DNA from: Thraustochytrium sp. TN22
Lineage: Eukaryota; Sar; Bigyra; Thraustochytrida; Thraustochytriidae
Direction of reading: 5' to 3'
Length of the DNA: 36,570 nucleotides
NCBI GenBank assembly: GCA_013306675.1
Contig: JABLUY010000244.1
Coordinates: forward strand, 19,027 to 55,596
The notes below the pieces were generated by a model, which saw nothing but the letters and a program-made list of their open reading frames with translations, ran no database searches and was not told the origin of the DNA. Below are positions 1-3,000 of this stretch, piece after piece; the first letter of the stretch is position 1; each line of letters opens with the position of its first letter. A program made the translations under genes and the position numbers.

Positions 1-3000
1 TCGCTGGAGTGAGTTCCTTCCTTCCTTCGTGATGCGCGGTCTCTTGCGCCGGTGGCACGGGCGGAGAGCGGCGCGGTCGGAGCGCGCAGGTCCGCACATG
101 TCGCCGGACGGCCGCGCGGCCAGCCGGCTTGACTTTGAGATGGGCCTCGCCGAGGCAAGCCGCCAGCAGCAAGCGGGCTCACGACCACATCGCATCGACA
201 CAGTCTTTTCAACAACAACATCGGCGACGAGGGCGCTGGGTCGCTGGCGGGAGCCCTGGGGAGCGGCCAGTGCGCGCTGACGTCGCTGGAGTGAGTTCCT
301 TCCTTCCTTCGTGATGCGCGGTCTCTTGCGCCGGTGGCACGGGCGGAGAGCGGCGCGGTCGGAGCGCGCAGGTCCGCACATGTCGCCGGACGGCCGCGCG
401 GCCAGCCGGCTTGACTTTGACAGTGAGATCAATGAGATGGGCCTCGGCGAGGCAAGCCGCCAGCAGCAAGCGGGCTCACGACCATAACGCATCGACACAG
501 TCTTGACTACAACGAAATCGGCCCAGCCGGCTTCCACGATCTGGTCCATCTGCTAGCCTCGGAAACAAAGTTAACGGGACTTGGGTATGTTTGATCGCTC
601 AGAATGATGATTGTGTGTTTGCACCACTGACTTGCTTGGAAACAGTGGGCTGCCGAGTCTTCCTGCAGAGTTGTCTTTCCGCGATCTTTTCTCTTGGAGG
701 AGCGGCGAAGACTCCAACGGGAAGCCTCATCCAACCCCCCGTACCCTGCATGAGCGCCTGGAGCTGCTTCGCAAGTACCTCCTGAGCAGCGAACAAGGGC
801 GAGTGTGGAGCTCGGCTGCGCACAAGCTAGCGCGCGCGTATGCAGACGTCTTCGCTTTTTTCGTGCAGATCCTCATCGCCCACGACGGCTTCGCTATCCG
901 CGAGCATGCCTTCTGGCTGGAGCTACCTGGCGAGACCGCCTCCGCCCAGGCGCTGCCAATCATACACGCGTTGCTGGAGTGCCGCGAGGGCGGATTCCTC
1001 AAGCTTCCCGCAAGCTTCTGCGAGAAGGTGTTTGGCATGCTCACGCTCGTGTCTGGCCTTGAGCTCATGCGTGCAGAAGACTCCAGCGGGCGCTCGGTGC
1101 GGTCGCTCGTGCTCGCCCGCCCGGATACGCAGGCCTGGGGAAGGACGTATGGTACCTTTCTGAGCCGCTATGCCATTGCGGATGGCCCGCCCGTGCACGA
1201 GTCCCTCACGTGCGCAGTTCACTTCGCGACTGACATTAAGCTCAACAAGGCAGTCGCGATCAAGGTCATGCGCGAGAAGGAGCAGTACGCACGCGAGGTC
1301 GATGCGCGCGCGTCGCCCTTGGAGGGCTGCCTCGGCCTGCTGCACCGGGACGATCCGCGGGAGGAGGCGGCGCAGAACGAGAACCTGTGCCTGGTCATGC
1401 AACGCGGGTCCCGGTCGCTCTTCGAAGCCATCAACACGGAGCGTTTCGCTGGGCGTGACCTGGACAAGATCCGCGTGATTGCGCACAAGCTCGCCGACGC
1501 GCTTCGCGAGCTGCATGAGAGCGGTCGCGTGCACGGCGACGTGAAGCCGCGCAACGCAGTGCGCGTGTCGGCGTCGGAGTCTCACACCTTCAAAGACGAC
1601 GGGGCCGGCGCCCTCCGCGTCTCCCGAGAATGGAAAGAGTCGTCCACGGGCGCCGGTCTCGGTCTTGCGCAGCACGAGAAGTGGCAGCTCATCGACCTGG
1701 ACGCTTCCGTCAAGCTGGGCGAGCCCCTCACCGAGAAGACCAGCTCTGGCTACGCGGCGCCCGAGGTCGCCCGCTGGCTGTTCGCGGACGACGAGCAGCC
1801 CATAGGTACTGAGGCTCTGGACGTGTGGAGCTTCGGCGTCGTCTTGTACCAGCTGCTGTCCGGCACCAAGCTCTTTATGGTGGACGAGTCGGACGACAAC
1901 CTGGTGCACCGTCGCGACAAGTTGGAGCTCATGAACTGGCTCGGCCTGGACGAGGAGCGGCTTGAGCGGATCCACGCGCATTCGCCGGAAGACCGTCGTG
2001 CGCGCGCACGAAAGGCAGGCAAGCAGCAGGAGATCGGCCTGAACGGCGATCCGGACGACATCACGGCGGCGCAGGATCTGGTGCGCCTCTGCCTGCGCGG
2101 CGACCCGGAGGAGCGTATCGAGGTCGCGGAGCTGCTCCGTCACCCGTTCTTTGACAAGGTGCGTCCGCCGCCGAGCGACGTGCCTGCGTCATCCTCGCCT
2201 CCGTCCCTCTAGCCAAGCCTGCCAGTGAGAAGCGCGAGCGCCTTTCCCTGCGCATCCTGCGCATTCACTGGCAGGTGCTCCCCGGGCACAACCGCTTCAG
2301 CCTCCTGAGGCAGACCCTGCGTCCCATGCCCAAGAAGCTGACCGTCGAGGACTGGGCGGAGAAGCCTCTCCGGACGGAGCTGATCGAGCTGCCGACCTTC
2401 CACTTTTTCCTCTCCCACATGCAGTCGCAGGCTGCGGGCATCGTCAAGGACCTGCTGCAGGGCTTGGAGCGCAGCCGGATGAAGGCCTGGATCGACGTGC
2501 GCGCGCCTGAGATCACCCTTGAGACCATGTATCGCGGCATTGTTACCTCGCGGTGCTTCGTGATGGTCCTCACAACGGACGTACTCTTCCGGCCCTTTTG
2601 TCTGGCGGAGCTCCGCTTTGCGCTGGAGCACTTTTCCCAGCGCGACAGCGAGTCTTCGCTCAAGAAGCGCATCTTCTTTCTCGTCGAGATGGACGATCGC
2701 TTCCACCCGTGGCACAACGACGACGTGCCCTGGAAGTACCGCGACCTGCTCAACGCGCGGGACGACCAGGTCCAGGACGAGGTCATGGAGCTGGAGATGA
2801 AGCGTGCCATGGCCGAGGAGGCCATGTACCAGCACGACTGGGCGACAGCACGCGCAGAGCGAGGCGGAGCGGACGAGGGAGCCTCGGCCGAGACCTTGGC
2901 TCGTGCGGTGGTAAAGGCCCGCATGGCTGTGAAGAAGTACCGCTTCGGGCTGGCGCTGCGCCGACTCACGGATGGCCTCAGGCGCCTCGACCCTGACACG

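Follow-up and report, generated by a model that had tools for sequence, protein, structure and literature searches.

Near-identical introns and variable predicted contact codons in the exon arrays of a probable LRR-kinase-TIR receptor gene and its paralogs

Why should two introns of one gene be almost identical when the exons that follow them are not? The question is raised by the first 584 nucleotides of the window, the whole 36,570-nt stretch of DNA analysed here, which corresponds to contig C160:19027-55596 of a 37.9-Mb assembly in 453 contigs has a GC content of 64–69% and is eukaryotic to judge from its introns and genes. Global alignment of the introns at 9-203 and 291-500 gives 192 matches, 3 mismatches and one 15-nt gap (195 aligned positions), and thus confirms the near-identity noted in the first-pass annotation. 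The exons downstream of them, 204-290 and 501-584, yield 50 matches, 19 mismatches and 33 gap columns in 8 gaps. As that annotation also stated, what they have in common is the leucine-rich-repeat (LRR) pattern, LFNNNIGDEGAGSLAGALGSGQCALTSL and LDYNEIGPAGFHDLVHLLASETKLTGL.

Introns were read from the sequence of one strain's draft DNA assembly, which has gaps in the arrays, and their splicing is predicted. All window features lie on the forward strand. The window opens with the 3' tail of an LRR exon (1-8), identical to 283-290. The remainder of this exon, which is the partner exon of intron 9-203, falls in an N gap of ~3.8 kb, internal to the array, that directly adjoins the first base of the window. 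The array intron at 9-203 (195 nt, GTGAG..CACAG), assigned from its sequence and a genome match search, is followed by an 87-nt LRR exon at 204-290, placed by exon calling, which encodes LFNNNIGDEGAGSLAGALGSGQCALTSL and a split junction codon. In the alignment, the second array intron (291-500, 210 nt) carries an extra 15-nt stretch. Both introns belong to class A (defined below), are bounded by GT..AG, interrupt the frame in phase 2 and have an in-frame TGA at the donor. The divergent 84-nt LRR exon at 501-584 is a cap that ends the array, with similar caps in C239 and C398, and it is followed by a 61-nt intron of non-array type (585-645, GTATGT..CAG; read by eye). Three more exons of array type precede the N gap and presumably belong to the beginning of the window's own array.

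Downstream of the array are a protein kinase domain (1364-2152; PF00069, E 1.4e-22, profile positions 66-263) and, in a different frame, a TIR domain (2404-2709; PF13676, E 1.8e-10). The window gene probably encodes an intracellular immune-type receptor of LRR-kinase-TIR composition, with a putative role in immunity. The kinase and TIR open reading frames (ORFs) overlap at 2155-2212, and a single open frame covers both domains in the paralogs C407 and C329; the frame change in the window may reflect a short intron or a frameshift. No Pfam match to NB-ARC or NACHT, the domains that NLR receptors combine with LRRs, was obtained at E 0.001 in the window kinase and TIR ORFs or in nine paralog ORFs, and AAA_22 appeared below its cut-off in two of these scanned ORFs. 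A plasmid search returned no match. Upstream of the window, C160:192-5666 contains six TIR matches at a spacing of ~1043 nt, four with equal score and one internal TGA.

The paradox of similar introns beside unlike exons is a register error, because the earlier comparison set each intron beside the exon after it, and the second of these exons is the array cap. The repeating unit is an exon plus an intron, so n introns pair with n array exons, and the exon past the last intron is an unrelated cap. The assertion that duplication cannot produce such a pair does not hold: in C398, exon and intron repeat together in ~10 units of 276 nt, and neighbouring units are 93–100% identical in the exon and 94–100% in the intron. 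The C407 array ends in the same edge, with 7/168 mismatches between its last two introns and 51 of 68 aligned nucleotides alike between the cap and the previous exon. Array ends are less clean in C239, C149 and C379, where the last intron differs from the preceding one at 15/99, 25/224 and 33/214 positions, respectively. At the 5' edge of the C160 and C398 arrays the first intron is array-like mostly in its 3' part, which places the array edge within that intron.

Plain tandem duplication, that is, recent copying of exon plus intron with neither exchange between genes nor special selection, accounts fully for the pair 9-203/291-500 and its exons, the pair being an array edge. It also agrees with the runs of identical or nearly identical units in C398 and C11 (73-76 kb), found in a unit-similarity survey that used a wider variable set, including also codons 9 and 27.

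An exon HMM applied to the fetched loci called 205 exons with both boundaries, a count that includes a few evidently misplaced calls and the near-duplicates of C359, and 175 of the 205 are exactly 87 nt long. Each exon encodes one LRR, with the LRR frame starting at nucleotide 2 and flanking introns in phase 2, and the best solved match to the repeat fold is the ribonuclease inhibitor 1dfj (E 5.5e-22). The arrays and genes form three groups. Class A comprises C160, C398, C239, C329 and C407, with the acceptor mostly CACAG/T, and class B comprises C86, C379, C321, C210, C149, C38, C11, C359, C381 and C1, with the acceptor mostly GCAG/C; the third group is divergent, mostly with short introns. 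The median intron length is 189 nt in class A, 225 nt in class B and 84 nt in the divergent group. A constraint of intron length to multiples of 3, suggested by the periods 276, 285 and 315, was rejected as non-identical introns are often not divisible.

Nine downstream reading frames were scanned. Four encode kinase-TIR, two of them in class A (C407, C329) and two in the divergent group (C155, C83), and the other five, all of class B, encode ROC-COR-TIR (C86, C11, C381, C321 and C38). ROC was found in all five class B genes scanned and COR-A above its cut-off in four of them, with C11 just below the curated cut-off. C398 and C239 exhibit kinase similarity, the TIR match of C398 being below cut-off. 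Class A pairs with kinase-TIR and class B with ROCO-TIR in every case checked, which for class B covers five of the contigs. Genome-wide, 123 matches to TIR_2 were listed, 9 of them under the curated cut-off. The segments C11:306-309 kb and C359:8-11 kb are near-identical copies of one class B array and perhaps represent two haplotypes.

Per-codon diversity in both class A and class B peaks at codons 2, 3, 5 (less in class A) and 8 and at the split junction codon. Variability is moderate at codon 27, and class A is variable at codon 16 as well. Units with an exon length other than 87, an HMM score of 60 or less, or N were excluded from the class A and class B counts. In the window exon the peaks correspond to 208-213 (codons 2 and 3, predicted concave-face positions), 217-219 (codon 5, where class A varies less than class B), 226-228 (codon 8) and 288-290, the last comprising the third base of Leu28 and then the two bases of the hypervariable junction codon that precede the intron. 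In the LRR fold, the L-x-x-L-x-L strand lines the concave, ligand-binding face. In the alignment to ribonuclease inhibitor, most of the variable codons fall on an x of the motif L-x-x-L-x-L-x-x-N-x-L, with codon 8 just behind, and judging from the LRR fold the five codons should face the ligand and make the contacts.

For all pairs of units at 2–5% intron divergence, the difference at the five-codon set is 0.47 in class A and 0.36 in class B, compared with 0.045 and 0.014, respectively, in the rest of the exon. Among neighbouring units with intron divergence below 5%, the 13 class A pairs differ at 34/2298 intron positions, 31/182 positions of the five codons and 22/884 of the rest of the exon; the corresponding counts for the 24 class B pairs are 69/5327, 41/336 and 22/1632. 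Fisher tests on neighbouring units treat sites as independent, whereas the bootstrap resamples pairs. The bootstrapped five-codon/intron rate ratio from pairwise alignments is 9.5 (3.7–17.7) for 14 class A pairs and 9.3 (4.5–15.3) for 23 class B pairs, and the class B ratio is 8.7 (3.8–14.4) with a codon set chosen from class A. When exons are paired with the upstream intron, the class A ratio drops to 4.8 (1.1–11.7) and that of class B holds at 9.4 (3.6–20.7). Codon 27 was kept out of both groups in the binned-pair, neighbouring-unit and bootstrap comparisons. C359 was omitted from the junction-triplet and patch counts, the nearest neighbours, the extreme-pair search, the bootstrap ratios and the class B pN/pS distance bins. 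It was retained in the per-codon diversity, the binned pairs, the unit-similarity survey, the exon-length, NNY and GC3 counts, the same-amino-acid counts and the neighbouring-unit pairs, where it adds no pair below 5%. Thus, in neighbouring units with similar introns, the five predicted ligand-face codons change ~9-fold faster than the introns, and the remainder of the exon changes at about the rate of the introns. The view that exons differ more than introns is therefore correct inside true arrays, but mostly because of the five contact codons.

The first-pass annotation also proposed homogenisation and exchange of modules, and comparisons between genes bear this out: array introns are 1.7–17.5% apart where the synonymous sites of kinase and TIR are 23–67% apart. 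In these comparisons, for class A as for the ROCO-TIR genes, pS was computed only over stretches whose amino-acid identity is 40% or higher. Array introns (means 0.061–0.097) are closer than the genes' own synonymous sites (pS 0.229–0.673) in all 10 pairs that the five class A genes form. The contrast is largest for the seven pairs that involve C329 or C407 (introns 0.061–0.085, pS 0.509–0.673) and modest for the three pairs among C160, C398 and C239 (0.074–0.097 versus 0.229–0.268). The array introns of the window gene and C407 differ by a mean of 0.063 (minimum 0.017) while pS is 0.520 for the kinase and 0.602 for the TIR domain; the C160-C329 values are 0.076 versus 0.539 (kinase) and 0.630 (TIR), and those of C160-C398 are 0.074 versus 0.266 (kinase) and 0.239 (TIR). 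The pairs C160-C239 and C398-C239 yield 0.097 versus 0.229 and 0.096 versus 0.268, respectively. All 10 pairs of the five ROCO-TIR genes follow suit, with intron means of 0.050–0.164 versus pS of 0.492–0.602.

Introns elsewhere resemble intron 9-203 more (up to 96–97% in C398 and C239) than do the introns with which its own array begins (91%). The nearest intron belongs to a different array in 9 of 25 class A units, one of these being without a second own-array intron to compare, and in 25 of 55 class B units, counted with C359 dropped. Most of the class B nearest neighbours from other arrays point to one central intron, C379_1879, which weakens the exchange reading because an ancestral-like copy would give the same pattern. 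Taken with the intron and pS values, these sequence comparisons support movement of units between old paralogs by conversion, ectopic exchange or transfer. The data fit both conversion and unequal crossing-over, and either may be the acting process.

Plain duplication as the only process is strongly disfavoured. It does not predict introns a few percent apart between genes with pS of 0.5–0.67, nor the ~9-fold excess of change at five codons over introns among neighbouring units, and we regard it as unlikely. The reading that we consider likely is concerted evolution of the backbone combined with diversifying selection on contact codons, in the LRR array of an LRR-kinase-TIR gene. The LRR domain would be built of tandem units, each an 87-nt phase-2 exon encoding one ribonuclease-inhibitor-type LRR plus an intron of ~170–240 nt. 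Because each unit is phase-symmetric, gain, loss or swap of units would leave the reading frame intact. Unequal exchange and/or gene conversion would homogenise introns and exon backbone, both within an array and between paralogs of the same effector class, and diversifying selection would act on five codons per repeat (2, 3, 5, 8 and the intron-split codon), which would remain different or become re-diversified. Introns would look younger than the variable exon positions because the backbone is homogenised while the contact codons diversify.

Selection at the amino-acid level has a mixed signature. The hypervariable codons of class B have a higher pN than pS in 4/4 bins. In class A, pN (0.445) and pS (0.447) are about equal at 2–5% intron divergence, which counts against plain amino-acid selection because such selection does not predict equality. 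At hypervariable codon 2, the same amino acid is encoded by a different codon in 17/42 cases in class A and 34/102 in class B. Furthermore, the third base of Leu28, although synonymous, is saturated (144/210 in class A and 760/1128 in class B, versus 0–0.27 at 8 control codons), and its state is associated with that of the junction bases (chi-square p 1e-12). The resulting triplets GGA (18), CAA (13) and TTC (11) make up 42 of 66 distinct exon-by-array units and are the commonest in both classes. This saturated base beside the junction codon is outside the best explanation and is left unexplained by it.

The Leu28 base and its recurrent triplets favour targeted diversification, in which some DNA-level mechanism would rewrite the contact codons, or short patches, of a cassette that is constant elsewhere. 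So does a pair of units from C379 and C321 with 0/228 differences in the intron (plus 6 gap columns), 0/68 in the backbone and 9/14 at the hypervariable sites. The pair also counts against selection alone. It was chosen among as many as 1,785 same-class pairs, which tempers its weight, and the C379 array is known without its gene body. A further point for targeted change is that 7/34 changed codons in close neighbouring pairs differ at all three bases. However, in classes A and B the two-fold NNY hypervariable codons end in C in 105 cases and in T in 4, compared with 63 and 17 in the divergent genes (p 0.0002); no stop codons occur at codons 2, 3, 5 and 8 in these classes; and GC3 is 0.75 in class A and 0.85 in class B. 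The NNY bias and the lack of stops favour selection over random mutation, and the composition is unexpected for untemplated mutation. No 5' patch common to two arrays was found (0.22 expected if codons are independent), hence no donor pool is visible. A cassette-donor model of the VLR type was rejected, none of the 57 distinct hypervariable 5' patches by array being common to two arrays, a zero that independence also predicts. We judge targeted diversification quite improbable. The same slim chance is given to its fullest form, in which the arrays would be a germline (or even somatic) sensor-writing system, with cassettes swapped among kinase-TIR and among ROCO-TIR genes via intron handles and a dedicated process whose rewriting is confined to the contact codons and takes in the junction triplet with its synonymous base. 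Under concerted evolution with selection, it is possible both that old variants were kept through backbone conversion and that new change arose under selection.

Collapsed or chimeric arrays, as an artefact of assembly, could be suspected from the N gap at the window edge and from several arrays that stop at contig ends, but many units lie in contiguous sequence on more than 10 contigs, and the differences between them are structured and recur at fixed codons; an artefact is very improbable. Introner-like insertion, the repeated insertion of a mobile intron raised in the first-pass annotation, would fit many near-identical introns within one genome but is next to negligible: of at least 39 genome matches to intron 9-203, 37 are on the five class A LRR-array contigs (the outcome that the annotation associated with module shuffling or conversion), one is at a contig edge (C343), one is a relic with an exon tail (C233) and none was found in an unrelated gene, the introns occupy the same phase-2 position wherever boundaries were called, and the search with this class A intron retrieved no class B array. 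The relic, C233:41852-41974 (L042), is a lone class A exon tail plus intron with no LRR motif within the surrounding 2 kb.

Repeat receptors with a homogenised backbone and variable contact residues are already known, and intron-less arrays are without a neutral clock inside the repeat. PRDM9 zinc-finger arrays, and HLA introns compared with exon 2, combine a homogenised backbone or introns with diversified contact positions, but these are different genes, without phase-2 exon-per-repeat arrays. The LRR-ROCO genes of brown algae were reportedly the subject of work by Zambounis in 2012. Passages of a later study describe these genes as having one LRR per exon, phase-2 introns, exon shuffling, positively selected concave-face sites and 72-bp exons (PMC11378527, Teng 2024). 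The exon layout is as in our arrays, and five class B genes likewise lead into ROC-COR; unlike the algal genes, the exons here are 87 nt and of ribonuclease-inhibitor type, a C-terminal TIR is present, the window gene has a kinase in place of ROC-COR, and the passages of PMC11378527 make no mention of intron homogenisation. For Tetrahymena, the main text of PMC6564038 describes tandem 90-bp LRR exons with phase-2 introns, proposes unequal crossing-over, reports long uniform introns in young LRR genes and short introns in old ones, and suggests that the 90-bp arrays arose a single time; a neighbouring REP-like non-LTR retroelement is a further feature of the Tetrahymena type. The arrays studied here share the exact-length tandem exons and the phase, with introns of 189/225 nt in homogenised and 84 nt in divergent arrays, but they have 87-nt exons and belong to another lineage, and neither 'hypervariable' nor 'positive selection' appears in that main text. 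In the WD40 repeats of the Podospora HNWD (het-d/het-e) intracellular receptors, parts of PMC12222747 describe concerted evolution and a few hypervariable contact codons under diversifying selection. In both systems the repeats are near-identical and their changes cluster at contact codons, here predicted from the LRR fold, whereas the repeat type and the other signalling parts differ and the word 'intron' is absent from the text of PMC12222747. The anatomy thus seems close to that of the brown-algal ROCO and Tetrahymena LRR genes, and the evolutionary pattern to that of Podospora HNWD.

Among the titles listed by a literature search joining thraustochytrids and leucine-rich repeats, none concerned such arrays, and a wider search gave no report that we recognised as covering arrays of this genome. 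What these arrays add is the clock inside each repeat, together with exchange between paralogs measured against the paralogs' own synonymous sites. Because every repeat carries an intron of ~200 nt, each one offers its own non-coding yardstick for the rate at which contact codons change, and the synonymous sites of the genes give a reference for dating the movement of modules from one gene to another. In what is probably a single-celled eukaryote, sensor proteins appear to be assembled from near-identical modules copied within and between genes, with strong differences at the few residues per module predicted to touch the target, and the arrays feed two classes of TIR effector. A universal 18S 16-mer had no match in the assembly; a PUFA synthase gene and the GC content of 64–69% in the window suggest a thraustochytrid host. 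If the host is a thraustochytrid, it represents a further lineage, beside brown algae and Tetrahymena, with expanded one-LRR-per-exon phase-2 arrays. A head-to-head layout of PUFA synthase genes is a thraustochytrid trait; the genome has a 3044-aa open frame with a PfaA-type PUFA synthase and a second large frame nearby on the other strand.
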